Assembly: GCF_036711975.1 (NCBI RefSeq)
Contig: NC_091970.1
Span: 689,501-753,500, forward strand
Source: Onthophagus taurus
Taxonomy: Eukaryota; Arthropoda; Insecta; Coleoptera; Scarabaeidae
DNA length: 64,000 nt
Direction of reading: 5' to 3'
The stretch's first letter is position 1; every line of letters starts with the position of its first letter. A program made the position numbers and the translations under genes. Below the pieces are notes generated by a model. The model saw only the letters and a list, made by a program, of their open reading frames with translations. It ran no database searches and was not told where the DNA came from. Below, piece after piece: positions 12,122 through 60,100 of the stretch.

Positions 12122-13060
12122 TCAAGGTTAGTTTATTTTTTTGTACAGGTTCGTTTTTTAGGGGCAGATTTCATTTTTTAATTTTATTTAACCTTTAAAA
12201 ATATGACATAACCGAACTGTCAGTGTGTAATTGTCAATTGATACGATCGATGAGCAAAAGATGGCGCTTAACATTTTTTTGATTCATTCAAAATAACTTA
12301 ATTTAAACTCATAATTCAAATTAGCTTAGATACAATATTTGAATAAACAATACTTGGAACTTAAATAATTTAATTTCGTAAATATTAATATTAATTAGAA
12401 TCGTCAAAAATATGTAATATTTGCGTTGTCAAAACGTTGTTGCAGCACTCGATAAGAGATGGCGCTGGTAGTAAATTATGAATTAAATTGAATTTGACAG
12501 TTTGAAAGTTCTTAAAATGTTTACAAAAAATTAATTGTGTGTTCGCTCACAAAAGAAAACAGTTAATCATAATTAACAGTTAATCAGTTTCATCATAATT
12601 TTTCTTTAGAGTGAATACTTCCTGCTGTAAGAAATGTTTTGATTAAACGCCAACAAGTACTTCTTTTAATTCCAGTATTTGAAAATTTTCCACTAAATAA
12701 AGCAGTTTTTCCCCGGTTTCATAACATTGAATCACGTAAACTTTTTCCTCTAATGTTAACATTGTATTTAAAAAACACACAATTTTGTTTTTCCATGGCA
12801 GTCCTTGTTAGAAATAAAATTGTTTGAAATGGATTTTTATCAAAGTAGGCCGATCATTCTGAAAATTTGCACATGGCCATAGTTTTTCATTCTGAACAAA
12901 ACTTCTTAGTGACACTTTGACGTACTGTAAACAGAAAAGGTACTTTACCTGCCACAAAAAAAGTTTTTCTTCCACTGTCAAGACACACGTTTTTTTTAAA
13001 TTGAAAATATGTTCAAAAAATTACAATTAATACCGAAAAAAATTTACCTTTTATAAGAGT
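12122..13060. other. MED1 3' flank / probable 3' UTR and spacer
   Basis: No convincing coding region. AATAAA at 12342 could end the MED1 transcript about 220 bases after the stop. AGATGGCGCT motifs occur near 12271 and 12463. Near 13060 the sequence TCCGGGGACACACTG looks like a transposon terminus bordering the next array. A 62-codon ORF at 12639 has no family features. Confidence 0.5.
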
Positions 13061-16000: not shown

Positions 16001-19000
16001 ATTTTGAATCAATTATCTTAATAAAAAATTTTTACATCTCTATTAATTAAGCATTTAAGTATAATTATGTATAAAAACGGAAAAATTATTATTTTGAGGT
16101 TATCTCCTTAATTAATGATTAAATCAAAAATTTTTGTTAACAATGTTTGTTAAGAATTGCTTCAGGAACAGTGTTTGTTAAAACAATTTTTTTCTAACTT
16201 GAAATTTTAATTTCCCTCTGAATAGTATGCTATCAAAATTAATTATCTCAACAATTATTGTTTTTATCAAAAAATGTTTTAAACAAAATTTGTTTCAATT
16301 TCGATTTTGAATCAATTATCTTAATAAAAAATTTTTACATCTCTATTAATTAACCATCTAAGTATAATTATGTATAAAAACGGAAAAATTATTATTTTGA
16401 GGTTATCTCCTTAATTATTGATTAAATCAAAAAATTTTGTAAACAATATTTGTTAAGAATTGTTTCAGGAACAGTGTTTGTTAAAATAATTTTTTTCGAA
16501 CTTGAAATTTTAATTTCCCACTGAACAGTATGGTACAAAAATTAATATTTTTGAGGTTATACCCTTATTGTTGATTTAATCAAAAAATGTTGTTAACAAA
16601 ATTTGTTTAGAATTACTTCAGGAACAGTGTTTGTTAATAAAATTTTTTGCTAACTTGAAATTTTAATTTCCTGCTATCAAAATTAATTATCTCAATAATT
16701 ATTGTTTCTATCAAAAAATGTTTTAAATAAAATTTGTTTCAATTTCGATTTTGAATCAATCATCTTAATAAAAAAACTTTACATTTCTATTAATTAAGCA
16801 TCCAAGTGTAATTATGTATAAAAACGGAAAAATTATTATTTTGAGGTTATCTCTTTAATTATTGATTAAATCAAAAAATTTTGTTAACAATGTTTGTTAA
16901 GAATTGCTTCAGGAATAGTGTTTGTTAAAACAATTTTTTTCTAACTTGAAATTTTAATTTCCCACTGAACAGTATGCTAGAAAAATTAATATTTTTGAGG
17001 TTATATCCTTATTGTTGATTTAATCAAAAAATGTTGTTAACAAAATTTGTTTAGAATTACTTCAGGAACAGTATTTGTTAATACAATTTTTTGCTAACTT
17101 GAAATTTTAATTTCCCTCTGAATAGTATGGTATCAAAATTAATTATCTCGATAATTATTGTTTCTATCAAAAAATGTTTTAAACAAAATTTGTTTCAATT
17201 TCGATTTTGAATCAATTATCTTAATAAAAAATTTTTACATCTCTATTAATTAACCATCTAAGTATAATTATGTATAAAAACGGAAAAATTATTATTTTGA
17301 GGTTATCTCTTTAATTATTGATTAAATCAAAAAATTTTGTTAGCAATGTTTGTTAAGAATTGCTTCAGGAACAGTGTTTGTTAAAACAATTTTTTTCTAA
17401 CCTGAAATTTTAATTTCCCACTGAACAGTATGGTACAAAAATTAATATTTTTGAGGTTATATCCTTATTGCTGATTTAATCAAAAAATGTTGTTAACAAA
17501 ATTTCTTTAGAATTACTTCAGGAACAGTGTTTATTAATACAATTTTTTGCTAACTGAAAATTTTAATTTCCCTCTGAATAGTATGCTATCAAAATTAATT
17601 ATCTCGATAATTATTGTTTTTATCAAAATATGTTTTAAATAAAATTTGTTTCAATTTCAATTTTGAACCAATTATCTTAATAAAAAAATTTTACATTTCT
17701 ATTAATTAAGCATCCAAGTGTAATTATGTATAAAAACGGAAAAATTATTATTTTGAGGTTATCTCCTTAATTATTGATTAAATCAAAAAATTTTGTTAAC
17801 AATGTTTGTTAAGAATTGCTTCAGGAACAGTGTTTGTTAAAACAATTTTTTTCTAACTTGAAATTTTAATTTCCCACTGAACAGTATGGTACAAAAATTA
17901 ATATTTTTGAGGTTATATCCTTATTGTTGATTTAATCAAAAAATGTTGTTAACAAAACTTGTTTAGAATTACTTCAGGAACAGTGTTTGTTAATACAATT
18001 TTTTGCTAACTTGAAATTTTAATTTCCCTCTGAATAGTATGCTATCAAAATTAATTATTGTTTCTATCAAAAAATGTTTTAAATAAAATTTGTTTCAATT
18101 TCGATTTTGAACCAATTATCTTAATAAAAAATTTTTACATTTCTATTAATTAAGCATCCAAGTGTAATTATGTATAAAAACGGAAAAATTATTATTTTGA
18201 GGTTATCTCCTTAATTATTGATTAAATCAAAAAATTTTGTTAACAATGTTTGTTAAGAATTGCTTCAGGAACAGTGTTTGTTAAAACAATTTTTTTCTAA
18301 CTTGAAATTTTAATTTCCCACTGAATAGTATGGTACAAAAATTAATATTTTTGAGGTTATATCCTTATTGTTGATTTAATCAAAAAATTTTGTTAACAAA
18401 ACTTGTTTAGAATTACTTTAGGAACAGTGTTTGTTAATACAATTTTTTGCTAACTTGAAATTTTAATTTCCCTCTGAATAGTATGCTATCAAAATTAATT
18501 ATTGTTTCTATCAAAAAATGTTTTAAATAAAATTTGTTTCAATTTCGATTTTGAACCAATTATCTTAATAAAAAATTTTTACATTTCTATTAATTAAGCA
18601 TCCAAGTGTAATTATGTATAAAAACGGAAAAATTATTATTTTGAGGTTATCTCCTTAATTATTGATTAAATCAAAAAATTTTGTTAACAATGTTTGTTAA
18701 GAATTGCTTCAGGAACAGTGTTTGTTAAAACAATTTTTTTCTAACTTGAAATTTTAATTTCCCACTGAATAGTATGGTACAAAAATTAATATTTTTGAGG
18801 TTATATCCTTATTGTTGATTTAATCAAAAAATTTTGTTAACAAAACTTGTTTAGAATTACTTTAGGAACAGTGTTTGTTAATACAATTTTTTGCTAACTT
18901 GAAATTTTAATTTCCCTCTGAATAGTATGCTATCAAAATTAATTATTGTTTCTATCAAAAAATGTTTTAAATAAAATTTGTTTCAATTTCGATTTTGAAC

Positions 19001-19705
19001 CAATTATCTTAATAAAAAATTTTTACATTTCTATTAATTAAGCATCCAAGTGTAATTATGTATAAAAACGGAAAAATTATTATTTTGAGGTTATCTCCTT
19101 AATTATTGATTAAATCAAAAAATTTTGTTAACAATGTTTGTTAAGAATTGCTTCAGGAACAGTGTTTGTTAAAACAATTTTTTTCTAACTTGAAATTTTA
19201 ATTTCCCACTGAATAGTATGGTACAAAAATTAATATTTTGAGGTTATATCCTTATTGTTGATTTAATCAAAAAATGTTGTTAACAAAATTTGTTTAGAAT
19301 TACTTCGGGAACAGTGTTTGTTAATACAATTTTTTGCTAACTTGAAATTTTAATTTCCCTCTGAATAGTATGCTATCAAAATTAATTATTGTTTCTATCA
19401 AAAAATGTTTTAAATAAAATTTGTTTCAATTTCGATTTTGAACCAATTATCTTAATAAAAAAATTTTACATTTCTATTAATTAAGCATCCAAGTGTAATT
19501 ATGTATAAAAGCGGAAAAATTATTATTTTGAGGTTATCTCCTTAATTATTGATTAAATCAAAAAAATTTGTTGACAAAGTTTGTTTAGAATTGTTTCAGG
19601 AACAATTTTTGTTAATACAATTTTTTTCTAACTTGAAATTTTAATTTCCCACTGAACAGTATGCAGTTCTTTTAATCAGAACGAGTTACAAAAGTTCCGT
19701 GTCCG
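13085..19705 (-). mobile_element. Satellite B array, inverted orientation, ~14-15 copies of the ~455 bp unit
   Basis: Reading the minus strand gives the same dimeric unit as the array at 5405-9950. On the plus strand TTTCCCACTGAACAGTATGG and TTTCCCTCTGAATAGTATGC alternate every ~450 bp to 19655. Three consecutive units between about 17.9 and 19.2 kb are almost identical to each other, showing recent local expansion. The far edge (GCAGTTCTTTTAATCAGAAC then GTTACAAAAGTTCCGTGTCC) is the reverse complement of the left edge of the first array (5345-5405), so both arrays belong to the same element family. Confidence 0.85.
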
Positions 19706-30009: not shown

Positions 30010-30570
30010 AATGACAGATTTAAAATTAAAAGAATTATCTTTATTGTTTGATAGATGGCGCTGTTGCCGGTATTAATAATCTAAAAAAATCATTAAATAT
30101 ATTATATTTTGTTGTGGGAGATTAAAAATTAATTTATTATGAGTTAATATGCTTAAAAATGATTTGATTTAATATTGTAATTTAAAAGATAGGAAATAGA
30201 TTCAAAATTTAAAGAATTGTTTTTATTATTGATAGATGGCGCTGATATCGGTATTAATAATCTAAAAATATAATTAAAAATGTTTTATTTTGCTGTAGGA
30301 GATTGAAAATTAATTTATTGTGAGTTAATATGCTTAAAAATGAATTAATTTAATATTATAATTTCAAAGATAGGAAATAAATTCAAAATTAAAAGAATTG
30401 TATTTATTTCTGATAGATGGCGCCATTAGGTTAATAATACAATAGTATTACAATAATATAAAAATGTAATTAAAGTTATTGTAGTTTATAATATGATTTT
30501 GAAAAATTATAATTTAATTTGCTTAATAATGGCTTAATTTAATATTATAACTTAAAAGATTAATATAGAC
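30010..30570. repeat. Three tandem copies of a ~182 bp unit between RpL19 and Utp14
   Basis: TTGATAGATGGCGCTG-type blocks recur near 30048, 30230 and 30412. They are followed by GGTATTAATAATCTAAAA in the first two copies, and by a TTAAAAATGA(A/T)TT(A/G)ATTTAATATT block. The array sits in the shared upstream region of the divergent RpL19 and Utp14 genes, so it may carry promoter elements. Confidence 0.75.
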
Positions 30571-32775: not shown

Positions 32776-33022
32776 TGTTTTTTATTATTTTAATAAAAAT
32801 AACCTCAAAATTTATTTTTTAACTCATTGTCACTTTGACCAACTGTCAAATCAAAATAGAATTTAAATTTATACGTTTTAAATGTACAATAATTAAATGT
32901 ATTAAAACAATTCTATTTGTTTAATGAATTTTCTTAAAAATGTTAATATCTTAGTACGATCTTATTAATTAAAAAGATTTTGATTTCAAAATGAAATAAA
33001 TTTTTCGTAAATTAAATAATAG
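32776..33022. other. Utp14 3' end and short spacer
   Basis: Contains the Utp14 poly(A) signal AATAAA at 32792-32797. No other feature is visible before the GC-richer exon at 33023. Confidence 0.6.
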
Positions 33023-33364
33023 ATGGCGCATCAATCGTGTGTATATGACGAAAATGTCCGCCGTGTTTCGGTTTCGGGGGGCAGAACACTATCAACTGGT
33101 ATCGCGTTAACGCCGTCGCAGCCGTCCGCTTTTTGGTGCGACCATGTGCGCGAAAACATGTCCAACAATCGACTGTTAGGCACCGTTTGCATCAAACCGC
33201 AGTGTGTGCCCCTTTTAAATGAGAACCTAAACCTTGTCAAAGTACTGTTCTCGGCCCAGCTGACCGAAGGGGGTCGCACCACCGATGATGGTCTCACCTG
33301 TTTTGACGTCTCCGCACCGATAGCCGAAGACAGAGTTACATCGGATTTTATATTACGCGTACAG
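33023..33364 (+). CDS. Candidate first coding exon of Regnase (long isoform)
   Basis: An open frame of 114 codons (MAHQSCVYDENVRRVSVSGG at its start, ILRVQ at its end) closes with a good donor, CAG|GTGAGA, in phase 0, matching the acceptor at 41050. It is markedly GC-richer than its surroundings, as expected for real coding DNA in this window. The ATG sits inside a recurrent TAGATGGCGC motif, so the true start could instead be the internal MSNNRLL methionine. No domain recognised; assignment to Regnase is inferred from strand, phase and lack of another downstream partner. Confidence 0.55.
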
Positions 33365-36300: not shown

Positions 36301-39300
36301 CCGTGGTCCCGTGTGTATGTATATTCATTCGACGTCCGCAACGGACGAAGAATAACCGTTTTGTCGGAAACGAGAACATAAACCGGATGTTCTCTCGCTT
36401 GGTGGCTTTTTTAAAGTTTTTTTTTAAAGTAGTAGTAATAGTGCGAACTTATTTTAAACAACAAACGGTCATGGACGTGATGTTAGATCCGGGTTCGGTC
36501 CTCAAGACATGATCGTTGGAGGCGAGGTGAGTGAGACGAAGTATAATAAACAGGAAAATTTACTTTCTCCGAAATGAAATTGTCTAGGTATCAACCCGGA
36601 TCTAGAAAAAGAAATTCGATTTTAAACGAATTGGGATTTGTTTTGTTCTTTGTTGGAAATTATTTAAAACGTTAAATGAAATTTATTGAAAATAAAGTGA
36701 ATCTGTTCTTGGGAATTTGTAAATTAACCTAAAAGTGGGAAAATACTCAAGAATTCATTGAAAGAATTTTTTTATTAATTTGCTGTGGTTTGTCACGATA
36801 AAATGTGGCTTTGAAAGAATTCTTTGAAAAAAAAATCATATTTTGTATAACTACGATATCTTTAATTAAAAATTTTAAATTTGATAATATCAAACGTCAA
36901 AATGACATTTAACCTGTCAATTTTAATGTTTGATTTTGTCAAACAACCTAACTTTTCAATGTAAAAGTTACATTTGTAATTCGAAATTGTTGGATTTAAA
37001 CTTATTTCTTTTATAAACATAAAACTACAATTTCAAATTTGACAATATCAAATGTCACAATGACAGGTATAATGTCAAAATGACATTAACCTTAATTAAT
37101 TAACGTCAATTTGAATTAGATATTTTAAAAAATCCTCAATGAGGTTCGTTCCTTAATTCCAAGCCGTTTAGGAAAAATTAATTTTTTTTTATAACCCCAC
37201 TTTTAATAAACGTCAATTTAAATCAGATATTTTTGAAAATTTATATAAAATGAATGGCTCATCCTGGAAACTTTAAATTTGGTATGAAACAACCTCAAAC
37301 GTTCCTTTATAACCTCAATGAGGTTCGTTCCTTAACTCCAAGCCGTTTAAGAGAAATAAATTTTTTCGTGTAACCTCACTTTCAATAAACGTCAATTTGA
37401 ATTAGATACTTTTAAAAAGTTATATAAAAGGAATGGCTCATCCTGGAAACATTAAATTTTATATAAGATAACCTCAAAGATTCCTGTATAACCTCAATGA
37501 GGTTCGTTCCTTAATTCCAAGCCGTTTAGGAAAAATTAATTTTTTTTTATAACCCCACTTTTAATAAACGTCAATTTAAATCAGATATTTTTGAAAATTT
37601 ATATAAAATGAATGGCTCATCTTGGAAACTTTAAATTTGGTATGAGATAACCTCAAACATTCCTTTATAACCTCAAAAAGTTTCATTTCTTAATTCCAAG
37701 CCGTTTAGGAGAAATTTATTTTTCTGTATAATCTCACTTTCAATAAACGTCAATTTGATTAGAAGTATTTCAAAAATTTATATAGAAGGAATGGCTCATC
37801 CTGGAAACTGTAAATTGGGTGTGAGATAACCTCAAACATTCCTTTATAACCTCAAAAAGTTTCATTTCTTAATTCCAAGCCGTTTAGGAGAAATTAATTT
37901 TTTTGTATAATCTTACTTTCAATAAACGTCAATTTGATTAGAAGTATTTCAAAAATTTATATAGAAGGAATGGCTCATCCTGGAAACTGTAAATTGGGTG
38001 TGAGATAACCTCAAACATTCCTTTATAACCTCAAAAAGTTTCATTTCTTAATTCCAAGCCGTTTAGGAAAAATTAATTTTTTTTTATAACCCCACTTTTA
38101 ATAAACGTCAATTTAAATCAGATATTTTTGAAAATTTATATAAAATGAATGGCTCATCCTGGAAACTTTAAATTTGGTATGAAACAACCTCAAACGTTCC
38201 TTTATAACCTCAATGAGGTTCGTTCCTTAACTCCAAGCCGTTTAAGAGAAATAAATTTTTTCGTGTAACCTCACTTTCAATAAACGTCAATTTGAATTAG
38301 ATACTTTTAAAAAGTTATATAAAAGGAATGGCTCATCCTGGAAACATTAAATTTTATATAAGATAACCTCAAAGATTCCTGTATAACCTCAATGAGGTTC
38401 GTTCCTTAATTCCAAGCCGTTTAGGAAAAATTAATTTTTTTTTATAACCCCACTTTTAATAAACGTCAATTTAAATCAGATATTTTTGAAAATTTATATA
38501 AAATGAATGGCTCATCTTGGAAACTTTAAATTTGGTATGAGATAACCTCAAACATTCCTTTATAACCTCAAAAAGTTTCATTTCTTAATTCCAAGCCGTT
38601 TAGGAGAAATTAATTTTTTTGTATAATCTTACTTTCAATAAACGTCAATTTGATTAGAAGTATTTCAAAAATTTATATAGAAGGAATGGCTCATCCTGGA
38701 AACTGTAAATTGGGTGTGAGATAACCTCAAACATTCCTTTATAACCTCAAAAAGTTTCATTTCTTAATTCCAAGCCGTTTAGGAAAAATTAATTTTTTTT
38801 TATAACCCCACTTTTAATAAACGTCAATTTAAATCAGATATTTTTGAAAATTTATATAAAATGAATGGCTCATCCTGGAAACTTTAAATTTGGTATGAAA
38901 CAACCTCAAACGTTCCTTTATAACCTCAATGAGGTTCGTTCCTTAACTCCAAGCCGTTTAAGAGAAATAAATTTTTTCGTGTAACCTCACTTTCAATAAA
39001 CGTCAATTTGAATTAGATACTTTTAAAAAGTTATATAAAAGGAATGGCTCATTCTGGAAATATTAAATTTTATATAAGATAACCTCAAAGATTCCTGTAT
39101 AACCTCAATGAGGTTCGTTCCTTAATTCCAAGCCGTTTAGGAAAAATTAATTTTTTTTTATAACCCCACTTTTAATAAACGTCAATTTAAATCAGATATT
39201 TTTGAAAATTTATATAAAATGAATGGCTCATCTTGGAAACTTTAAATTTGGTATGAGATAACCTCAAACATTCCTTTATAACCTCAAAAAGTTTCATTTC

Positions 39301-42300
39301 TTAATTCCAAGCCGTTTAGGAGAAATTTATTTTTCTGTATAACCTTACTTTCAATAAACGTCAATTTAAATTAGAAATTTAAAAAAAGTTATATAAAATG
39401 AATGGCTCATCTTGGAAACTTTAAATTTGGTATAAGATAACCTCAAACATTCCTTTATAACCTCAAAAAGTTTCATTTCATAATTCCAAGCCGTTTTGGA
39501 GAAATTTATTTTTCTGTATAATCTCACTTTCAATAAACGTCAATTTAAATTAGATATTTAAAAAAAGTTATATAACATGAATGGGTGATCCTGGAAACTT
39601 TAAATTTGGTATAAGATAACCTCAAACATTCCTTTATAACCTCAAAAAGTTTCATTTCTTAATTCCAAGCCGTTTAGGAGAAATTTATTTCTCTGTATAA
39701 TCTCACTTTCAATAAACGTCAATTTAAATTAGAAATTTTAAAAAAGTTATATAAAATGAATGGCTCATCTTGGAAACTTTAAATTTGGTATAAGATAACC
39801 TCAAACATTCCTTTATAACCTCAAAAAGTTTCATTTCTTAATTCCAAGCCGTTTAGGAGAAATTTATTTTTCTGTATAATCTCACTTTCAATAAACGTCA
39901 ATTTAAATTAGATATTTAAAAAAAGTTATATAACATGAATGGGTGATCCTGGAAACTTTAAATTTGGTATAAGATAACCTCAAACATTCCTTTATAACCT
40001 CAAAAAGTTTCATTTCTTAATTCCAAGCCGTTTAGGAGAAATTTATTTTTCTGTGTAATCTCACTTTCAATAAACGTCAATTTAAATTAGATATTTAAAA
40101 AAAGTTATATAACATGAATGGGTGATCCTGGAAACTTTAAATTTGGTATGAGGTAACCTCAAACATTCCTTTATAACCTCAAAAAGTTTCATTTCTTAAT
40201 TCCAAGCCGTTTAGGAGAAATTTATTTTTCTGTATAATCTCACTTTCAATAAACGTCAATTTAAATTAGATATTTAAAAAAGTTATATACCATGAATGGG
40301 TGATCCTGGAAACTTTAAATTTGGTATGAGGTAACCTCAAACATTCCTTTATAACCTCAAAAAGTTTCATTTCTTAATTCCGAGCCGTTTAGGAAAAATT
40401 AATTTTTCTGTATAACCTTACTTTCAATAAACGTCAATTTGAATTAGATATTTAAAAAAAAAATTATATAAAATGAATGGCTCATTCTGGAAACTTTAAA
40501 TTTGGTATGAAACAACCTCAAACGTTCCTTTATAACCTCAAAAAGTTTCATTTCTTAATTCCAAGCCGTTTAGGAGAAATTAATTTTTTTGTATAACCTT
40601 ACTTTCAATAAACGTCAATTTGATTGTAAGTATTTCAAAAATTTATATAGAAGGAATGGCTCATCCTGGAAACTTTAAATTGGGTGTGAGATAACCTCAA
40701 ACATTCCTTTATAACCTCAAAAAGTTTCATTTCTTAATTCCAAGCCGTTTTGGAGAAACTAATTTTTTTTTATAACCTCGCTTTCAATAAACGTCAATTT
40801 TAATCAGATATTTTTAAAAAGTTATATAAAATGAATGGCTCTTGTTGGAAACTTTAAATTTGGTATGAGGTAACCTCAAACATTCCTTTATAACATCAAA
40901 AAGTTTCATTTCTTAATTCCAAGCCGTTTAGGAGAAATTAATTTTTCTGTATAACCTCACTTTCAATATGATTTGTATACATAATTTTTTTAACTTGTTC
41001 TTTTATCCCTAACTGAATTAAATTATTGATTTTAACCTTTTTGTTACAGAAATATGTAGACGATATATGTAAAGAGGGTTGCGCCGGTGCCGTAGCTGGT
41101 GAAGATTCTAGTTACGATTCGGATTGCGACGCGGAACCGTCCTGTTTCAGTCATCAGGATGTCTCCAGGACGACCAGCGACACCCTCGCCGCCGAATACG
41201 CCGAGTACGTCCAAACGAGCCCCGATTTATCCAGAAGTTACACAGCCAGGCAAGTTTCTTTTACATTTATTTCAAATTAAATAATCAATTCCACTTATTT
41301 AATTCTATTTAGGGTAGAGTTCGCGTTAAAATTGGGCTACACCGAACGTTTAGTTCAATCGGCCCTTCAAAAATTGGGCCCATCCCCCGCCCAAAACGAA
41401 TTATTAGCAGAATTAATTAAATTGGGGGCTCAAAGAGGGAGTTCTTGCGATAGTAGTCCTATTGAGGATAACCCCGAGGATCTTCAAGTTTTAGAACAAC
41501 AACAACAAATTTCCGCGCAATCGTTACGACCGATTGTTATTGATGGTAGTAATGTAGCGATGAGTCATGGTAATAAAGAAATATTTTCTTGTCGCGGGAT
41601 AAAGATTTGCGTCGATTGGTTTAAAGCGCGGGGACACATGGATGTAACGGTGTTCGTGCCGAAATGGAGAAAAGAAGCCCCTCGGCCGGATAATCAAATT
41701 CGGGACCAAGAAATCTTGGCCGATTTGGAACGCGAAAGACTTTTGGTCTTTACACCATCGCGATTTGTGGGTGGGAAAAGGATGGTTTGTTACGATGATA
41801 GGTATATATTAAAATTAGCGGCGGAAGTCGATGGAATAGTTGTAAGTAACGATAACTATCGGGATTTATGTCAAGAAAGTGCCGAATACCGTAAAGTCGT
41901 TGAAGAACGAATTTTGATGTATTCGTTTGTAAATGATCGTTTTATGCCCCCGGATGATCCTTTAGGACGATCTGGACCTACCCTCGATAATTTTTTACGA
42001 ACACAACCGAAAAAAGCCGATCCCCCTCCACCTTGCCCATACGGAAAAAAATGCACCTACGGTAATAAATGTAAATATCATCACCCCGAAAGAGGTCCAT
42101 TTCCGCATAAAAGCGTCACCGAACGTTTATCGGAACACGCTCAAAGACATTTATTAGCACGCGAAGGTGAAATAAGAAAAACCCCCGTTACAAGAACCCG
42201 ATCGAATGTCCCACCGGTTAAAGAACAACCACAACATGTAATCGTTTCAAAAAGTTTAAGCGTTGATAATGTTGGGTCGCCATCCTATCAAGTAGTGCAA

Positions 42301-42765
42301 GCGGAAAATTTACATCGAAAATTACAAAGGCAATTAACACTAAATCCATCAACGGATCCCCGATTATCACGACGTTACACCCCCACTCCCATCGGTACGA
42401 TACAAATTCAATCGGCGTATTTAACACCGCCGTCTTCTTGGGATGTTCATCCTCATGTTACAAGAATTGCTTCTGCGCCGGATTCTTATCGGCAATGGCC
42501 CCCACAACCGCATCTTCATCAACAAGGACACATGCATAGGGTGTCGAGTTGTTCTGATCCGCAATTAAATATGTGGCCGGGGCCGCAATGGGGTTCGCAA
42601 GGCGCTCAAAGTCAAAATCTTCAAGATGAAGCTCGAAGGAAGTTACATTATCATTTGGCCGCGATTTTTCCTGAGGAACAAGTTGCGAAAGCTATGCAAA
42701 TGTATCCGGATGAAACTAATCCGCAAAAAATTTGTGCTGCCATCCTTGGGATGTTCCCAAAATAA
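33023..42765 (+). CDS. Zc3h12: Regnase / ZC3H12-family endoribonuclease (PIN/NYN + CCCH)
   Basis: Regnases cleave stem-loops in 3' UTRs of short-lived mRNAs, often of immune genes. The confident exons are 41050-41249 and 41313-42765, joined as AG|G (SYTAR-VEFALKLGY) across a GC-AG intron. Domains in order: a UBA-like helical domain (FALKLGYTERLVQSALQKLG); the PIN/NYN nuclease with acidic catalytic motifs VIDGSNVAMSHG, CYDDRYILKL and DGIVVSNDNYRDL; a CCCH finger CPYGKKCTYGNKCKYHH (C-x5-C-x5-C-x3-H); a Pro/Gln/Ser-rich linker; and the C-terminal domain HYHLAAIFPEEQVAKAMQMY. Two upstream exons can each splice to 41050 in phase 0: 33023-33364 (total 664 aa) and 36509-36526 (total 556 aa). The last large intron is packed with satellite C. 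A family-level call; which ZC3H12 type is not decided. Confidence 0.9.
33365..36300 (+). other. Intron or upstream region of Regnase, with promoter-like GC-rich patch
   Basis: Mostly AT-rich with no coding region. The stretch at about 34390-34960 contains two to three degenerate copies of a ~200 bp block (TGACATTTCTAATTCGAAATTG, with AATTTTAAATTTGACA and CAAACGTCA), repeated again at 36850-37100. A CpG- and GC-richer patch at 35520-35720 looks like a promoter or non-coding first exon. The minus-strand ORF there is not credible as protein. Confidence 0.45.
36300..36526 (+). CDS. Alternative first exon of Regnase (short isoform, MIVGGE) with overlapping upstream ORF
   Basis: ATG at 36509 opens MIVGGE and the exon ends at 36526 with a near-ideal donor, GAG|GTGAGT, in phase 0 with the exon at 41050. 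An upstream ORF reading MDVMLDPGSVLKT (ATG at 36471, or longer from ATG near 36386) ends in TGA at 36510-36512, so the coding start and the upstream stop overlap as ATGA. The exon start is unknown. CGTCCGCAACGGACG near 36330 can form a hairpin. Confidence 0.55.
36850..37100. repeat. Degenerate intronic repeat (same family as 34390-34960)
   Basis: Shares TACATTTGTAATTCGAAATT-type and AATTTGACAATATCAAA blocks with 34440-34950. It borders satellite C directly. Confidence 0.5.
37100..40970 (+). repeat. Satellite C, about 21 copies of a ~180 bp unit with higher-order structure (Regnase intron)
   Basis: CCAAGCCGTTTA recurs near 37160, 37338, 37517, 37696 and 37876 and onward to 40930. Each unit contains TTCCTTTATAACCTCAA, AATTCCAAGCCGTTTAGGA, TTTCAATAAACGTCAATTT and AATGGCTCATCCTGGAAAC. 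Variants follow an order: units with ATAACCCCACTTTTAATAAA alternate with units having GTGTAACCTCACTTTC and GTATAATCT(C/T)ACTTTC. Blocks of three to five units therefore repeat almost exactly (37.1-38.0, 38.0-38.75, 38.75-39.3 kb). The last third (39.4-40.3 kb) is a more homogeneous run. Confidence 0.93.
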
Positions 42766-43510
42766 TTTTAACTCAAAAAAAAAAATAAATAAATAAGATG
42801 TTTATAAAAAAATGTTATATTTGTCGACAAATATTTAAAAAGATGGATAAAAACAATTTTATTTTAAAAATTCAAAAGTATCTAACTTGGTTAGCATTTA
42901 CAGGGTGATTATCTGATAATTTTCGGAACATCCTATATATAATTATTGTATATGTATACGGGTGGATTTTTGTTGGTTTTTTGTTTAATATAAAATTTAT
43001 TTCACTTACTTATGCGAAAAGAAGTAAACAAGAAGTTAACCACCTTGTATTAATCGAAAAACCAACTTCATCTAACGTATTTCTTTATATGTATGTCTAT
43101 ATACGTTGATACTATGTATCTCTAGTAAAAATTGTTGCAATTTTTGTATTATAAAGTAGCGTGTTTTATTAATAATAACAACAAAAAAAAATGTTAAAAA
43201 AATAATAAGAAACCGACCGTCTCTATCGTTTTTTCATACACTTTTACCCCCTAAATGTTTCTACTAAGAATAAGGTTTTATTTCATGGTTTCTTATTTTG
43301 TATATTATAGCATTAAGTGTTTTCCATCTATTAGTGTAGTCAAATATTAATTAGATCGGCTATAATGTATTAAAAACGCTACTTTTCGTTCAATTTATAT
43401 TTATGGAGCTTTGTAGATAGGAGTGTTCTAATTTTTTTTTATTTTATAACTTCTATACTGTTATTTATTTGCATTTGTAATTAAAAAACTAATAAAATTC
43501 GTTTTATAAG
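42766..43510 (+). other. Regnase 3' UTR
   Basis: AT-rich, no gene. AATAAA at 43491-43496, in the context of TATACTGTTATTTATTTGC, is the likely poly(A) signal. The same tail sequence reappears in every Nup42 5' duplicate downstream, which shows that it was part of the duplicated segment. Confidence 0.7.
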
Positions 43511-43539
43511 GATTTAATCTTATTATTTTTATTATTAAT

Positions 43540-43740
43540 TATTTAGCGCCATCTATTGCTTTTATAGCTGAAATTAAAACAACATAACCTCATTTCAATT
43601 TCATTGTGATTTTTATTAATTATTTCAAGTATTAACGATGTTTGTTTGTAAATTTCTTTTGCAAAGTAGTTGGAAATTTTATAATTTTTGTCGATTTGAT
43701 CATCAATTATTTCAATTTTCGATTTATAATTAAAAATTAA
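43540..43740 (+). pseudogene. Degenerate copy 1 of Nup42 promoter and exon 1
   Basis: AGCGCCATCTATTG, ACATAACCTCATTTCAAT and then AACGATGTTTGTTTGTAAAT at about 43636 align with the Nup42 leader and exon 1, but the zinc-finger frame is lost. No exon 2 follows before the next copy. Confidence 0.65.
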
Positions 43741-43769
43741 TAATATTAGCTTTTTTTAATGTTATTTGT

Positions 43770-44085
43770 TTAGCGCCATCTATCAGCGCTATAACTGAAA
43801 CTAATACAACATAACCTCATTTCAAATACATTGTTATTTGTATTAATAATTTAAAGTCTTAATGATGGTTATTTGTAAATTTCTTCTACAAGGTACATTC
43901 AAATTTGGTAATTCTTGTAGATTGATCATCAATTAGGTAATAATAACAAAAATTAAAGAATTATTAAAATTTAATTATAACCTAACTTTCTTTAAACTAA
44001 TACAGGGGGACACAACAATAATCAAAATGTAGCTCGGGCAATAATGATTGATCCAAATGCCTTAATACAAATCTTATTGAATAAC
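43770..44085 (+). pseudogene. Degenerate copy 2 of Nup42 exon 1 to exon 2
   Basis: Exon 1 starts with ATG near 43864 (MVICKFLLQGTFKFGNSCR). The second zinc ligand Cys is replaced by Phe, and a deletion shifts the frame before the His ligand. The exon 2 part (CAAAATGTAGCTCGGGC, ATGATTGATCCAAATGCC) is present but its acceptor is rearranged. It ends at the same junction (TTGAATAACTTTTATACTG) as the later copies. Confidence 0.7.
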
Positions 44086-44246
44086 TTTTATACTGTTATT
44101 TATAATTACAAGTTAATAAAATTAGTTTAATAAGGATTAAAATTTTATTTTTTAGCGACATCTATTGACGTAATAATTGAAACAAAAGCAACATAACCTC
44201 ATTTAATCTTTACTGCGATATTTATTAATTATTCTAAGCATTAACG

Positions 44247-44507
44247 ATGGTTGTTTGTAAATTTTTTCTACAAGGTACCTGCAAATTTGGTAATTCTTGT
44301 AGATTCGACCATCAGTTAGGTAATAATAAGAAAAATAAAGGATTTATTAAAATTTAATTATAACCTAACTTTTTTTAAGACAATTCCGGAGGATCATCAA
44401 TTTTAAAGCAGAATAATAATCAAAATGTGGCTCGGGCAATAACGATGGATCCAAATGCCTTAATACAAACCTTATTGAATAACTTTTATACTGTTATTTA
44501 TAATTAA
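44247..44507 (+). CDS. Nup42-derived minigene 1: single CCCH zinc finger, 66 aa predicted
   Basis: Exon 1, 44247-44319, encodes MVVCKFFLQGTCKFGNSCRF then DHQL, with an intact C-x7-C-x5-C-x3-H finger identical to Nup42. Donor G|GTAATA and acceptor TTTTAAG (exon 2 from 44380) match the Nup42 intron 1 sites. Exon 2 runs through QNVARAITMDPNALIQTLLN, then NFYTVIYN and TAA at 44505-44507. AATAAA follows at 44513-44518. The unit is thus a complete small gene with a Nup42-like upstream region and a poly(A) signal that derives from the Regnase tail. It lacks the FG and Gle1-binding parts. Whether it is expressed is unknown; a young, not yet decayed duplicate would look the same. Confidence 0.6.
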
Positions 44508-44644
44508 AAGTTAATAAAATTAGTTTAATAATGATTAAAATTTTATTTTTTAGCGACATCTATTGACGTAATAACTGAAACAAAAGCAACATAACCTCAT
44601 TTAATCTTTACTGCGATATTTATTAATTATTCTAAGCATTAACG

Positions 44645-44905
44645 ATGGTTGTTTGTAAATTTTTTCTACAAGGTACCTGCAAATTTGGCAATTCTTGTAG
44701 ATTCGACCATCAGTTAGGTAATAATAAGAAAAATAAAGGATTTATTAAAATTTAATTATAACCTAACTTTTTTTAAGACAATTCCGGAGGATCATCAATT
44801 TTAAAGCAGAATAATAATCAAAATGTGGCTCGGGCAATAACGATGGATCCAAATGCCTTAATACAAACCTTATTGAATAACTTTTATACTGTTATTTATA
44901 ATTAA
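44645..44905 (+). CDS. Nup42-derived minigene 2: single CCCH zinc finger, 66 aa predicted
   Basis: Near-identical to the copy at 44247: exon 1 at 44645-44717, exon 2 at 44778-44905, stop at 44903-44905 and AATAAA at 44911-44916. The finger, both splice sites and the reading frame are intact. The predicted protein appears identical to minigene 1, and its first 25 residues match Nup42 exactly. Its period relative to minigene 1 is 398 bp, and the same spacing (398 bp) separates it from the real Nup42 ATG. Confidence 0.6.
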
Positions 44906-45042
44906 AAGTTAATAAAATTAGTTTAATAACGATTAAAATTTTATTTTTTAGCGACATCTATTGACGTAATAACTGAAACAAAAGCAACATAACCTCATTT
45001 AATCTTTACTGCGATATTTATTAATTATTCTAAGCATTAACG

Positions 45043-46386
45043 ATGGTTGTTTGTAAATTTTTTCTACAAGGTACCTGCAAATTTGGCAATTCTTGTAGAT
45101 TCGACCATCAGTTAGGTAATAATAAGAAATATAAAAGATTTATTAAAATTTAATTATAACCTAACTTTTTTTAAGACAATTCCGGAGGATCATCAATTTT
45201 AAAGCAGAATAATAATCAAAATGTGGCTCGGGCGACAACGATGGATCCAAATACCTTGATACAATCCGTAATTAACGATATGGTGGCTGCGGAACAAGGG
45301 AAACAATGGATTTTTTCAAGTTATAGCCCTTTTAAGGACAAGCCGACTTTCCCTGGATTCGATGATAAAAGTTTTGAGGAGATCCGATTGGGGTTTTATG
45401 AAGCTAATAAAGCTGGAACTATAGAACATTATGTAAGATATGTTTAATGATTTAGATATATAATTGATTTATTTTTTGTTAAGAAACAAATGGTTCAAAT
45501 GTGGTACCAAGAAGCGTTCGGAAGGATAAAAACATTACAAAATCCTAATCAGGAAATTGTGAAATTATTAACACAAATTTATAATACAAATCAACAACAA
45601 CCATTTCAAAATAATAATAACGGATTTGGTTCAAATAATATTCTTGGAGCTAATTCGCAAAATTCAATTTTTGGTGGTAATAAACAACAAAATCCACAAA
45701 ATAATAATGTTTTTGGACAAAATACGATCTTTGCAAACGCAAATAATTCACCGTTTTCAACAAATCAATCTCCATTTGGAAATAATGCTAATAATCAATC
45801 AAAAACGTTTAACCAAAATCCAACAAATATGTTTAATCAAAATAATTTTAATCAAAACTCAATTTTTAGTAATAATAGTATATTTAGTAATAATCAACCC
45901 CCACAACAAATACAACAACAATTTAGCAACATTCAGCCATCAAATAATCCATTTGCTAATAATACAATTCCTCAATCGAGTCCATTTGCACCCCAAAACA
46001 TTCAACAAAGCGCCCCATTTAATCCCCCTGCAACTCAAGCAACCCCATTTATACCCCAACCTAATCCCAATCACACAAACTTATTTAATCCGCAAAATCA
46101 AAGCACAATCTTTCAAAATCCAGTTCAAAATAATCCAATATTTAATAACCCGGCACCTAATTATTATCAAAATCCCCAAAATGTATTTAATCAAAATTCG
46201 ATTTTTGGAAATTCAATTTTGAATAAAAATCCTGGAGGTGATGCAGCAAAACCGAACGTTATTGATAACAATTCGTATTCGAAAATAGAGGATTTAACGC
46301 AAGAGGAAATTAAATCATTCGAATGTGACGAATTCGATTTTGGGAAGATTCCTGAACGACCTCCAACGTTAGAAATGTGCTTTTAA
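45043..46386 (+). CDS. Nup42: Nucleoporin Nup42 (NUPL2/hCG1 type), CCCH finger plus FG-like repeats
   Basis: Nup42 sits on the cytoplasmic face of the nuclear pore and works with Gle1 and the DEAD-box helicase Dbp5 in mRNA export. Three exons, 45043-45115, 45176-45432 and 45484-46386, join in frame to 410 residues. Residues 1-24 form the zinc finger (Cys4, Cys12, Cys18, His22). The conserved block GKQWIFSSYSPFKDKPTFPG, then GFDDKSFEEIRLGFYEANKA, spans about 60-100. About 200 residues of Asn/Gln-rich NxF repeats follow; only about five are true FG (GFGSN, IFGG, VFGQ, PFGNN, IFGNS), the rest being FS, FA or FN. The C-terminal ECDEFDFGKIPERPPTLEM is the Gle1-binding-type tail. Both ends of the gene are tandemly duplicated in the flanking DNA. 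Confidence 0.9.
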
Positions 46387-48015
46387 TTATTTTTTGATCA
46401 AAAAACTCTTTAATAATTTGATATCTGTCAAATATCAATGATTTAAAAAAAAATCGATTATTTTCGTTTTTTTTTTTTGATTTATTATCAAATTAAATTG
46501 TAATTAATCAATGGTTTCGATAATATTTATTATAAATGCTTTGTTTAAATAACAATAATTTATTTAAAAAAAAAAGTGTTTATCTAACTTCACACTTAAC
46601 ATTTCTAATCTGGGGATATTTTGTTAAAAAAGAAATAAACTCTCTAACGTCTTTGTTTACGTTTAAATGTGACGAATTCGATTTTAGAAAGATTATCGAA
46701 CTCCTCTAACGTTAGAAATGTGCATTTAATCATTTTTTTAATCAAAAAACCCCATACCAATTTGATACCTGTTAAATATCAATGATTAAAAAGAAATCGA
46801 TTATTTTAGTTTTTTTTTTTTTTGATTTATTATCAAATTAAGTTGTAATTAATCAATGGTTTCGATAATATTTATTATACAAGCTTTGTTTAAGTAATAA
46901 TAATTTATTTAAGAAAAAAAGTATTTTATCTAACTTCACACTTAACATTTCTAATCTGGGGATATTTTGTTAAAAAAGAAATAAACACCAGTCTTTGTTT
47001 ACGTTTAATCGTTTGAATGTGACGAATTCGATTTCGGAAAGATTCTCGAGCGTCCTACAATGTTAGAAATGTAGTTTTAATTATTTTTTAATCAAAAAAC
47101 TATAACAATTTGATATCTGTCAAATATCAATGATTTAAAAAAAATCGATTATTTTAGTTTTTTTTTATTTATATCAAATTAAATTGTAATTAATCAATGG
47201 TTTCGATAATATTTATTATAAATGCTTTGTTTAAATAATAATAATTAAAAAAAAAAAGGATTTTATCCAACTTCACACTTAACATTTCTAATCTGGGGAT
47301 ATTTTGTTAAAAAAGATGTTTAATCGTTTGAATGTGACGAATTCGATTTTGGAAAGATTCCCGAACTCCTCTAACGTTAGAAATGTGCTTTTAATCATTT
47401 TTTAATCAAAAACCCCATAACAATTTGATACCTGTCAAATATAAATGTTTAAAAAAAATTGATTATTTTGTTTTTCTTTTTGATTTATATCAAATTAAAT
47501 TGTAATTAATCAATGGTTTCGATAATATTTATTATAAATGTTTTGTTTAAATAATAATAATTTATATGAAAAAAAAGGTATTTTATCTAACTTCACACTT
47601 AACATTTCTAATCTGGGGATATTTTCTTAAAAAAGAAATAAACACTAGTCTTTGTTTACGTTTAATCGTTTGAATGTGACGAATTTGATTTTGAAAAGAT
47701 TTTCGAGCGTCCTACAATGTTAGAAATGTGTTTTTAATTATTTTTTAATCAAAAACTCCATAACAATTCGATATCTGTCAAATATCAATGATTTAAGAAA
47801 ACTCGATTATTTTTGTATTTTTTTTTTTATTTATTATCAAATTAAATTGTATTTAATCAATGTTTTCGATAATATTTATTAAAAATGCTTTGTTTAAATA
47901 ATAACTATTAAAAAAAAGTATTTTATCTAACTTCACATTTGACATTTGTAATCTGGGGATATTTTGCGTTTAAAAAAAAAATAGACGCCAGTCTTTGTTT
48001 ACGTTTAATCGCCAT
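46387..48015 (+). repeat. Tandem copies of the Nup42 3' end (last codons plus 3' UTR), ~315-350 bp units
   Basis: GTGACGAATTCGATTT of the real gene at 46325 recurs at 46669, 47019, 47334 and (variant) 47675, each followed by the Nup42 3' UTR (ATCAATGGTTTCGATAATAT, TTCACACTTAACATTTCTAA, TCTGGGGATATTTTGTTAAA). Copies at 46669 and 47334 stop early with ELL-stop. Copies at 47019 and 47675 keep ERPTMLEM before their stops, so the array alternates two types. All lack an upstream coding region, so they are treated as non-coding remnants. Confidence 0.88.
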
Positions 48016-48184
48016 CAGATGTCAACGATACATGTTTTGTGTAACGTTCAAAAACCTCATTTCCATGCAATCTCTAACGGGTGACCGATACAAAACTCGA
48101 TAATCCACATTTAAGTGTATAATAATGTAGCAAGAGTCGCACAATAACCGCTTCATACAGTACCCCATCGCCCTAACTAAAATA

Positions 48185-51100
48185 ATGGATTCAAAACCAC
48201 AGCATCAAACAACCGACACCGACGAAACCTCATCAGATTTAGGGGGTATCAGACCGTCGTTTAGATTTCCACCGGCCCCGCGTTTATGTAAATGTGCAAA
48301 CAGCATCACCTCACGAAGTGTAAGCTATAATTCAGATAGTTCAGTTAGTGATGGAACCCTATTAAGGACGAGGAGACGCAACAGGCGAAGGTATCTAAAG
48401 CATCTCCCTCCAATCGGTGTCTTTTGGGACATTGAAAACTGTCAGGTTCCCAAGAATAAAAGCGCCTCGTCCATTGTACAAAAAATCAGGGAATTATTCT
48501 TTGACGGTTACCGAGAAGCCGAGTTTATCGTTGTTTGTGATGTTAAAAAAGAAAACGCACAAATTATACAAGACTTACACGATGCTCAAGTTAATTTAAT
48601 TCACGTCTCGTCGACCAGCAAAAACGCGGCAGACGAAAAACTACGACAGAGTCTTCGTAGGTATGCGGAAACGTATTCGGCTCCGTCTGCCGTAGTTTTG
48701 ATCTCAGGCGATATAAATTTTGCGGGTGATCTCTCCGATTTACGTTACCGGAAGAAAATTCAAGTCATTTTAATACATAATTGTAACGCTGCGGATGCCC
48801 TCATATCGTGTGCTAATAAGTCGTATGCTTATGGAAGTCTTACAGAAAATTTACCGTTATTAAAAACAAAAATTTCAAGCCAGTATGAAATATTAATTGA
48901 AAATTTACCAATTAATTGTGGAATGAAGAAATTAAGGAATCGATTGAATCGGCTTTCAGATAATTGTGGAGGAAAAGTTATTAATGTTGATATTAAATTG
49001 GGGGCGGCTGTTTTGGTTTTTAGTAATTATAATTTTGCTATTAGGTAAGTTTTTAACCTAAAAATTATTTTTGGTGATTTTCATTTTTTAATGTTTTTGA
49101 ATCTAAAATTAAGTTGGTATGATTCGTTTGATATTAAATTGGAGCGACATTCATTATTAACAGAACTGTCACTGTTACATAGAAAATATTTATATAAAAT
49201 TAATTTCTTGAAAGATCCTCGTGGAAATATCACCAATTATTAATTAAAGTATCCTCTTTTTAATGCAAAACGCCGTTTTGAAAAATCACTTTTAGTTTTT
49301 GAGAAATAAATTTTTGAAATGATCGACAATTTTTTCGAATTTTGCAATTTTCGCCGATTAAGTTTTAAAAATTCGTATAAAATCGATTTCTTGGAATATG
49401 AGTATGAAAATTTCCCAAAATGTTAATAAAAGTGCCCTCTTTCCAATGAACCAATACGTTTTGAAAAATAACTTCGTTTTTGAGAAAACAATATTTGAAG
49501 TTTTGATAAAAATTTCATTGATAATTTTCAAAAGTCGCTGTAAAATAAATTTCTTGAAAGATCGTTGTGGAAATATCACCAATTATTAATTATAGTATCC
49601 TCTTTTTAATACAAAAATCACTAGTTTTTATTGATGAAATAATTTAAAAATTATTTTTGGTGATTTTAATTTTTTAATGTTTTCGAATTAAAATTTAAGT
49701 TGGTATGATTTGTTTTGAAATGGTTGAATTGGAGCAAAAACTGGTTTCTTGTTCCTAGTTTCTAACTTGTTGGTGCAAGCGAAAACGGCGTGTTCTGTTA
49801 ATTTATTTTATTTCGTTTAAATTAATCTTAAAAAGTGAACGTAAAGTTTTAAAAAAATGTCCGAGTATAAACCTTACCCCAATAAGAGGTATTTTAAATA
49901 AACTTGTTTATTTTAAATTATATTTTTTTGGTTAATTTGTGCAAATTACTTTTTTGTATAAAAAATGATGTTGTAATAAATTTTTATTTCTTTTTGTAGG
50001 GCCCAAAGGCGTCTCCGAGGGGAGGATGTTTATGGATACAAAATTCGATTGTCAAATCCAACGAACGTTGGAGATTTACCAGCTAGAAATTTTACCCGTA
50101 AATATTTCTGATATATTTTTTTTTATTTATATTAATTTGTTTAATAAATTAGCTCGTCCACCAAAGTCTGTGGAAGGCGCCGGACAATCCTCAGGTTATT
50201 GCAGCCAAGATGGCGGCAATTATTACCCTAATAGTCAAAATAATAGCTGGGATTCCAGGAAATATTTACAAGAACAGGTAATTAAAGTTACAATCATTTC
50301 TATTAACGTTAATAAATACTTTTTTTTCCTATAATACTTGTCAAGATAAATTATTTAGGGTTTCTTTGGTTTTTGTTTAGGACCCTTATAAAATTTATGT
50401 TGTTTTCCTGATTTTTAGTAACATTTTCAGTAACTAAATAGTTGAGGTTAAAATACTAATAAATTTTTAGATAAATACGATTTTAACGCAGTACATATTT
50501 ATTGTAAAAACGTGCTACAAACTAATGAAATAGAACAAAACACCTTTTCTAAGTAAACAAATGTCAAATAAACGCAAATTTCGATGATTTAAGCATAAAT
50601 TAATTAATTTTCATAAAAAAAAAACCATGACGTTTCATAAAATTGACATTTAATTTTGACAAATTGTTGTGAAGTTGGTTACAATTGCTAACATTGAATT
50701 AGTGTCACATTGAAGTTTAAACTTTATTCAAAACTTTATTTAAAAAATAAATTTGTCTACAACTACCTTATAATATATACCTTATGAATGAGTTTTCTAA
50801 ACCAAAAGGGTAGTCATTTTTCACGGAGTGAATAATAATCATCATTTACGTGCAATCAACTTGACAGTCTAATAATAATTATTAGAAACGTTAAAATTTC
50901 AAAAAACGTCAATTTAATTCAATTTTTTAGGACTTTCTAAAGATTTGACGTTAAAAAAACGTAAACAAATTCCTTTTTTTGTATGATTTAAGCATAAATT
51001 AATTAATTTTCGTAAAAGAAAAACATGACGTTTCATAAAATTGACAAATTGTTGTGAAGTTGGTTACAATTGAATTTGTGTCAAATTGACGTTTTAACTT

Positions 51101-57100: not shown

Positions 57101-60100
57101 AAGTACCAGTAGTTTTAAACACTCATTTTAAAAAGAAAGCTTTGAGCTTTCATTTAGAACAAGTCTCATTCCTTAATTTCAATAAATACGGCTTCCAGGA
57201 ATTTTTAAGTTAGCATCTTTTTTGACACTTTTAGGTTATACGAAAATGTAAGTTTTATTTCAACATTTTTTTTCTCAATATTTTTCCAATCCAACCCAAC
57301 AATTCTTATACATCATTTTAAAGAGAAAGCTTTGAGCTTTAATTTAAAATAAGTCTCATTCCTTAATTTCAATAAATACGGCTTTCAGGAATTTTTAAAT
57401 TAGCATCTTTTTTAACATTTTTAGGTTATACGAAAATGTCAGTTTTATTTCAACATTTTTTTTCTCAATATTTTTCCAATCCAACCTGACGATTATTATA
57501 TATCATTCTAAAAAGGAAGCTTTGAGCTTTAATTTAAAATAAGTCTCATTCCTTAATTTCAATAAATACGGTTTCCAGGAATTTTTAAATTAGCATCTTT
57601 TTTGACACTTTTAGGTTATACGAAAATGTAAGTTTTATTTCAACATTTTTTTTCTCAATATTTTTCCAATCCAACCCAACAATTATTATACATCATTTTA
57701 AAGAGAAAGCTTTGAGCTTTAATTCAAAATAAGTCTCATTCCTTAATTTCAATAAATACGGCTTCCAGGAATTTTTAAATTAGCATCTTTTTTGACACTT
57801 TTAGGTTATACGAAAATGTAAGTTTTATTTCAACATTGTTTTTCTCAATATTTTTCCAATCCAACCCGACGATTATTATATATCATTCTAAAAAGGAAGC
57901 TTTGAGCTTTAATTTAAAATAAGTCTCATTCCTTAATTTCAATAAATACTGTTTCCAGGAATTTTTAAATTAGCATCTTTTTTGACACTTTTAGGTTATA
58001 CGAAAATGTAAGTTTTATTTCAACATTTTTTTTCTCAATATTTTTCCAATCCAACCCAACAATTCTTATACATCATTTTAAAGAGAAAGCTTTGAGCTTT
58101 AATTTAAAATAAGTCTCATTCCTTAATTTCAATAAATACGGCTTTCAGGAATTTTTAAATTAGCATCTTTTTTGACATTTTTAGGTTATACGAAAATGTC
58201 AGTTTTATTTTAACATTTTTTTTCTCAATATTTTTCCAATCTAACCTGACGATTATTATATATCATTCTAAAAAGGAAGCTTTGAGCTTTAATTTAAAAT
58301 AAGTCTCATTCCTTAATTTCAATAAATACGGCTTCCAGGAATTTTTAAATTAGACACTTAGATTATGCAAAAATGTTAGTTTTTGCTCAATATGTTTTTT
58401 GACTTTTAACAGACGTCAAATTAAATCATCTATTTTCAAAAGCTTACATATATAAATTGGATTTTTGACCCGAAAATCTTAAAATTTAGTTATAGTGCAA
58501 GAAAACATAACACAACATCAAAAAGGTTTTTAATACAAATAATTTTAATACTATATTTTTTTTTAGATAATGGGCGATGGTGATAATCGAGTTATAACAT
58601 TAACACATTCAGCTCAAATTCGTCGATTCACTCGCGATTTATTTAAAGTACTAAAAGCGCATCAACGAAAACCGATAACTTTAAACGAATTTCCATCGAT
58701 TTACGAACGGGCGATTAAACGTCCGTTTAACGTTTTCGAATACGGTTTATGCGAGTTGGAGGATTTATTAAACGAAGTGCCGAAAGGAGTTATAGTCGTT
58801 TCGAAAGAAAATCCCGACGAAACCGTAACAATTTCGATCCCAAAACCGATTCAAACCGCCGAACAAGTTATTCGTACAAAACAATTCGCCGAAAATGTCA
58901 TCAAATTGTTGTATCACACACCTCAAGGTTCGATGATGTTCAATAAATTCGTTCCAGCATATCATTGGCATTTTGGGCATCAGTGTCGAATAAGCGATTA
59001 TGGGTTTACAAAATTGATTGATTTATTTGATGCGATTCCGGAAACGGTTCGAATTGAAGATCTTCCGAATGATGAAAGAAAAATTTCTTTAACAGCGCCG
59101 GTTGCGTTGAGAATTTTAGGTTTAAAAATACGGAATATAATACAAACCTCTAAATTAGCTACTGTACCTTTAGTGGATTTACCATCGACTTATTTGAAAC
59201 AATACGGTTACCCACTTCTTCCTCAAACGTATGATTGCGAAACAATCCTAGAAGTTCTTCAAAAATTAACAGATTATGTTGATGTTTCTATAAGCAGCGC
59301 TGGTCCGATGCTTATTTTAGCCTCAGCCGAATTAAACGCAACCGCAATAATGCGAATTTGGTCGATATTATTGCAACCTCCCCATCAATTAACCGCCAAT
59401 GAATTTATTAATCGGTATCAAGAAAATTTTCATACCTACACTTATTTGACGCAACTCGAAGATTTAAAAGAAATCGTTTCAATTCAAGGGGATGATAATA
59501 ATGATAACAAAACGGTTCAATTAAACGCTTTTTATGAATTGGCTGCGGAATTTTATCATTTATTGTATAAAGCTGGAGGAAAGATTCGATTGGGACAATT
59601 GGAAATAAGGCATAAGCAAGTTTATAACAAAACGATTTGTTATGAAACCTTCGATTCTGATGGTTTGGAAGATTTACTGGGAAAAATGGATTTTGCCTTT
59701 GTTGTTCAATGGCCGGCTGGAAGGACTTATGTTTCTTTAAAACTTTCTCTTAGCGGTAAGTGGCTTAATTATAACAAATTTTGGTTTAATAAATAAATAT
59801 TTTTTGTCCACAACTACCTTATTCTAACATTAATCATTAACAATCAAAAACATGACGTTTCATAAAATTGACATTTAATTTTGACAAATTGTTGTGAAGT
59901 TGGTTACAGTTGGTAATATTGAATTTGTGTCACTTTGACGTTTAAACTTTATTCAAAAATTTATTTAAAAAATAAATTTATGGAATCAATTTCAATAGTA
60001 TTCTACTCACATATAATAATATAATATTAATAGCTTATGGAATTCCACTCCCGGTGCATTGCGATACAATCACGGAAACGTCCGAAAATCAAGGAGGGAT

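Follow-up and report, generated by a model that had tools for sequence, protein, structure and literature searches.

Finger-bearing partial copies of the Nup42 5' end in a tandem array of Onthophagus taurus

Upstream of the nucleoporin gene Nup42, in the stretch of 64,000 nucleotides of Onthophagus taurus DNA analysed here (the window), two short units, C1 and C2, read as complete minigenes with a start codon, a CCCH zinc finger, an intron, and a stop codon. Are they small genes in their own right, or fragments of Nup42 too young to have decayed? Both answers were raised in the initial annotation, which proposed that the products might compete with Nup42 for ligands and named recent duplication as the plain alternative. 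The two answers are weighed here on the anatomy of the units, their relatives in the same array, and the behavior of comparable sequences under simulated mutation.

Anatomy of the units and of their source gene

The units and the gene from which they derive are composed as follows.

44247..44319, + strand: C1 exon 1, with ATG and CCCH finger (exon edges, translation, Pfam profiles)
44320..44379, + strand: C1 intron, 60 nt, GT...AG (sequence)
44380..44507, + strand: C1 exon 2 piece with non-Nup42 tail, TAA stop included (sequence)
44513..44518, + strand: C1 AATAAA, possible poly(A) signal (hexamer shortly 3' of the stop)
44645..44717, + strand: C2 exon 1, with ATG and CCCH finger (exon edges, translation, Pfam profiles)
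44718..44777, + strand: C2 intron, 60 nt, GT...AG (sequence)
44778..44905, + strand: C2 exon 2 piece with non-Nup42 tail, TAA stop included (sequence)
44911..44916, + strand: C2 AATAAA, possible poly(A) signal (hexamer shortly 3' of the stop)
45043..46386, + strand: Nup42, source of the copies, three exons (45043-45115, 45176-45432, 45484-46386), 410 aa (translation, Pfam, structure matches)

Start codon, finger exon, splice sites, open frame, and stop had been described for both units, and on translation the description proves exact to the base. The predicted length of 66 residues is likewise correct, and the spliced products of C1 and C2 are identical. The product carries neither FG repeats nor a Gle1-binding motif, as had been claimed; the units lack the later part of exon 2 as well as the exon with the FG part and the segment coding for that motif. 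Their finger has the same residues as that of Nup42 and exceeds the Pfam cut-off of zf-CCCH (PF00642; 35.6 bits vs 20.5), and the cut-offs of PF18044 and PF18345 are passed as well. The residues following ALIQ stem partly from diverged exon 2 and partly from formerly intergenic sequence (homologous to ~43450-43500). Each unit is a 5' gene fragment with a start codon, fused to non-coding neighbor sequence.

The introns of C1 and C2 are identical and agree with intron 1 of Nup42 at 58 of 60 positions. When read unspliced, all three frames run into a stop after 36 residues, so that translation of Nup42 from its ATG requires removal of intron 1. The start context is common to C1, C2, and Nup42 (A at -3, G at +4), and none of the three has an ATG within the 52 nt of leader examined. 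The AATAAA hexamer begins 6 positions past the last stop base in both C1 (44513) and C2 (44911). Since such a hexamer occurs by chance within 30 nt in ~9% of cases at the window's rate, and is already present in the intergenic sequence at 43491, it is taken as luckily inherited. Because each unit comes with the Nup42 leader and an AATAAA just past the stop, its transcription is plausible.

Nup42 itself, the nucleoporin also known as NUPL2 (hCG1), is the source of the finger, leader, and intron of both units. Its N-terminal CCCH finger spans residues 2-22 (PF00642; 32.2 bits, cut-off 20.5). At the opposite end a Gle1-binding motif is present: residues 370-408 match the Gle1-binding fragments of NUP42/Nucleoporin like 2 in 6b4j_C (E 0.0009) and 6b4f_C (E 0.00096), and residues 371-408 match 7tbl_f (E 0.0012). 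The best of the 18 matches in the structure search is the CCCH finger protein CPSF4 (E 0.00089), found via the finger. The middle part is rich in N and F and displays FG, IFG, and PFG motifs, as read from the translation alone. The neighbors of Nup42 within 41281-49048 are a homologue of Regnase-1/ZC3H12 (frame 41281-42765) and a homologue of MARF1 (frame 48131-49048), both with NYN-type domains.

The tandem arrays and the origin of C1 and C2

C1 and C2 belong to an array of five tandem units, Nup42's own 5' end included, with spacings of 227, 382, 398, and 398 bp. Decayed copies lie on either side of the young ones and the gene.

43638..43710, + strand: D1, oldest unit, exon-1-like, second zinc Cys codon now Trp (56/73 identical to Nup42 exon 1)
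43865..44081, + strand: D2, older unit, with exon-1-like part, intron-like part, and exon 2 remnant at 44011-44081 (64/71 identical to Nup42 exon 1)
46654..47976, + strand: four decayed tandem copies of the Nup42 3' end and its flank (sequence comparison)

The proposed descent from the 5' end of Nup42 is borne out by the 398-bp register and by the high identity among the three youngest members. C1 and C2 agree at 393 of 398 positions (5 differences), and C2 agrees with the Nup42 5' end (C3) at 392 of 398 (6 differences); register and identity together set this likeness apart from chance. C1 and the Nup42 5' end differ at 10 of 398 sites. Divergence from the gene increases from C2 through C1 and D2 to D1. 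In D1 the exon 2 piece is missing before the next unit starts, and in D2 the second finger Cys has turned into Phe and one base is deleted ahead of the His; the second zinc-ligand Cys is lost in both of these older units upstream of C1. The array is confined to this locus. A search of the whole genome (290.8 Mb, 33 contigs; G+C of the window 28%) with one unit, in which very common words are passed over, gave five matches among the best candidates scored, namely the five array units. The first 149 residues of Nup42 gave seven, all at the Nup42 locus, and neither unit copies nor a second Nup42 were found elsewhere among the best candidates of the nucleotide and protein searches. With the finger model, 18 matches were obtained in the genome, three of them C1, C2, and Nup42. 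A tRNA scan found nothing, and a sigma-70/terminator scan, based on bacterial models, was uninformative (13 promoter-like sites vs 14.8 in shuffles).

On the 3' side, the copies comprise the ECDEFDFGKIPERPP stretch from the last portion of the coding region, together with flank, at a spacing of 314-350 bp, and GKIPERPP is whole in none of the four. Nup42 is accordingly bordered on both sides by copies of its own two ends. Arrays with a period of at least 30 bp occupy 38% of the window. In a comparison set of 19 further stretches, 189.5 kb in total and picked by position, not at random, the share is 22%; their distribution is patchy, with 0 to 100% per comparison stretch and 7 of the 19 holding none. 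Long arrays with periods of ~150-460 bp are located at 1-4054, 5411-9951, 13317-19663, 37134-40968, and 57115-58353. Among the remaining arrays in the window that have a period of at least 100 bp, none overlaps a stop-to-stop frame of at least 100 residues, which makes the Nup42 5' array unusual in the window for including coding sequence. As for telomeric repeats, exact TTAGG arrays occur at a single internal place in the whole genome (2 overlapping matches) and no TCAGG arrays were found in it; the telomeres may carry a different repeat, or chromosome ends may be absent from the contigs.

C1 and C2 are probably 5'-partial tandem duplicates of Nup42, of recent date, whose tail was recruited from non-coding sequence. 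Each 398-bp unit contains the sequence upstream of Nup42, its finger-bearing exon 1, its first intron, and the beginning of its exon 2, fused to a non-coding stretch from upstream that provides the last residues, the stop, and the AATAAA. The most likely origin is an unequal exchange, in an array-rich region, between Nup42 and the older partial copy D2, presumably between the exon 2 remnant of D2 and exon 2 of Nup42. The new unit would thereby have obtained a living head from Nup42 and, from D2, a tail joined to intergenic sequence. This fits the Nup42-like head of C2, which agrees with the gene at 147 of 148 positions in the upstream part and at 73 of 73 in exon 1, combined with a D2-like tail, as the end of the exon 2 piece of C1 and C2 and the sequence following it are common to D2 and unlike Nup42. 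The mosaic is imperfect. Taken as a whole, the exon 2 piece is equally close to Nup42 (92/100 identical) and to D2 (70/78 identical, with 22 gap columns), and among the sites shared with D2 (44438, 44440, 44457, 44462) lie others that agree with Nup42 (44443, 44447), so that subsequent point changes have to be reckoned with. Given their Nup42 leader, start context, and splice sites, C1 and C2 would be transcribed to some degree, yielding either the 66-residue finger peptide or, if the copied exon 1 skips the exon 2 piece of its unit, ordinary Nup42. A small effect on fitness and eventual loss would be expected, as with D1 and D2.

Such partial duplication with a recruited tail is already known. 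For Drosophila yakuba, the accessible text of a survey gives 43 putative cases in which a 5'-partial tandem duplicate recruited non-coding sequence, and 30 cases with activated transcription; as in C1 and C2, a 5' gene fragment is joined to formerly untranscribed neighbor sequence (PMC5460883). The Nup42 locus differs from these cases in its five tandem units, with decayed ones beside young ones; what it adds is several ages side by side. A Nup42-like gene has also undergone recent duplication in place in Drosophila melanogaster, where, according to the part of the report available, the near-identical neighbors CG18787 and CG18789 show limited homology to NUP42 and encode products differing at 3 residues; unlike C1 and C2, they are not 5' fragments (PMC10864285). 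The Nup42 array can be viewed as a snapshot of proto-gene making in an array-rich genome, with leader, start, finger, intron, and stop inside one 398-bp unit and older, decayed units next to it. For annotation it is a warning, as gene-finding programs may annotate C1 and C2 as genes or give Nup42 a false extension.

Intactness and the competing readings

Whether intact frames indicate selection was assessed by placing random mutations on a 447-bp stretch, with or without 15% indels and with or without the requirement that the CCCH residues be retained. After 2-5 mutations, start, splice dinucleotides, and frame were kept with P 0.94-0.84 if indels were left out and with P 0.87-0.71 at 15% indels; with the CCCH residues also required, the values were 0.89-0.75 and 0.84-0.65, respectively. 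After 12 mutations, P was 0.67 without and 0.44 with 15% indels, or 0.51 and 0.35 if the CCCH residues had to be kept. Across these criteria, P spans 0.65-0.94 at 2-5 mutations and 0.35-0.67 at 12, so the intact state of C1 and C2 is no evidence of selection, and two intact copies at 6 and 10 differences from Nup42, shared by the lineages, are no surprise if neutrality is assumed. The reading that the initial annotation had offered as the plain alternative, young copies whose decay is yet to come, is thus the better one, since intactness is expected at the divergence of C1 and C2. The dN/dS of the finger was dropped as a test: among C1, C2, and Nup42, the 73-nt finger exon contains 1 synonymous difference, which leaves the ratio without power.

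The idea that C1 and C2 encode a functional 66-residue zinc-finger protein, a competitor of Nup42 for some RNA or protein ligand, appears very improbable. Its appeal lies in the open frame with the finger residues of Nup42, intact in both C1 and C2, in the start context and the ATG-free 52-nt leader, in the AATAAA past the stop, and in the existence of ligands outside the FG part: according to the accessible text of a review, human hCG1 (NUP42) binds CRM1 and Gle1 via non-FG regions, the finger not being named there (PMC9132428). Against it, intact frames are expected without selection in the simulation, the powerless dN/dS adds no support, and a zinc ligand is lost in both older copies. The Gle1-binding motif, moreover, is carried by the Nup42 C-terminus, as far as the available part of the source goes, and would be missing from the peptide (PMC5998080); 'zinc finger', 'ZnF', and 'CCCH' have 0 occurrences in the main text of that paper. 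The Nup42 finger alone is untreated in the accessible portions of PMC13242641, PMC10864285, PMC9132428, PMC5998080, and PMC5460883, a selection that leaves subscription literature largely outside its scope. If C1 or C2 transcripts exist, the locus would allow a direct test of the finger acting alone. A more elaborate form, in which recurrent unequal exchange between D copies and the live gene re-creates an intact gene for a finger-only peptide, which, made from the Nup42 leader, titrates a ligand of the finger, seems slightly less probable still. Misassembly of one unit into an inflated copy number would suit a region rich in tandem arrays, but the copies differ from each other (5/398 sites between C1 and C2, 6/398 between C2 and the Nup42 5' end), and the older, diverged units D1 and D2 adjoin them; an artefact is accordingly the least probable of the explanations considered.

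A further possibility involves the sequence ahead of the start codons, which contains a composite element in every unit.

44152..44201, + strand: composite upstream element of C1, TTAGCGACATCTAT ... ACATAACCTCA (5/5 genome matches are array units)
43543-43592, 43770-43819, 44550-44599, 44948-44997, + strand: the same element in the other units (exact genome matches)

C1 and C2 might give Nup42 additional promoters and alternative initial exons that splice to the acceptor before 45176, the array thereby raising or varying the dose of Nup42. Joined to the real exons 2 and 3, the first exon of either unit would give a protein identical to Nup42, and for this reason a role as alternative first exon is no less plausible than one as competitor peptide, should the units be transcribed. 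The element is kept in 5/5 units, the decayed ones included, and exact matches elsewhere in the genome are lacking; its part ACATAACCTCA is also present before Utp14 in the window, where it stops 54 nt ahead of the presumed ATG. Even so, the idea is considered unlikely. The 16 invariant columns around the motif in D1, D2, and Nup42 are reached in 2125/20000 shuffles and hence do not go beyond chance, and motif conservation was dropped as promoter evidence. Of the 5 exact non-array matches of ACATAACCTCA in the window, the one at Utp14 is the only one tied to a gene start, and near matches number 72 in the window vs 0.85 expected, many of them inside arrays. The nearer acceptor and the AATAAA within each unit would, in addition, favor a short transcript. 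Recent partial duplication stays the preferred account of C1 and C2.

A separate observation concerns AGCGCCATCTA, which, together with its one-mismatch forms, occurs 11 times in the window vs 0.18 expected, 8/11 of these in two repeat clusters. The places are 43545-43555, 43772-43782, 30052-30424, 12258-12466, and 33020-33030. The reverse complement of AGCGCCATCTA resembles the core of the insect CTCF motif; in C1, C2, and Nup42 the core reads GCGACATC.
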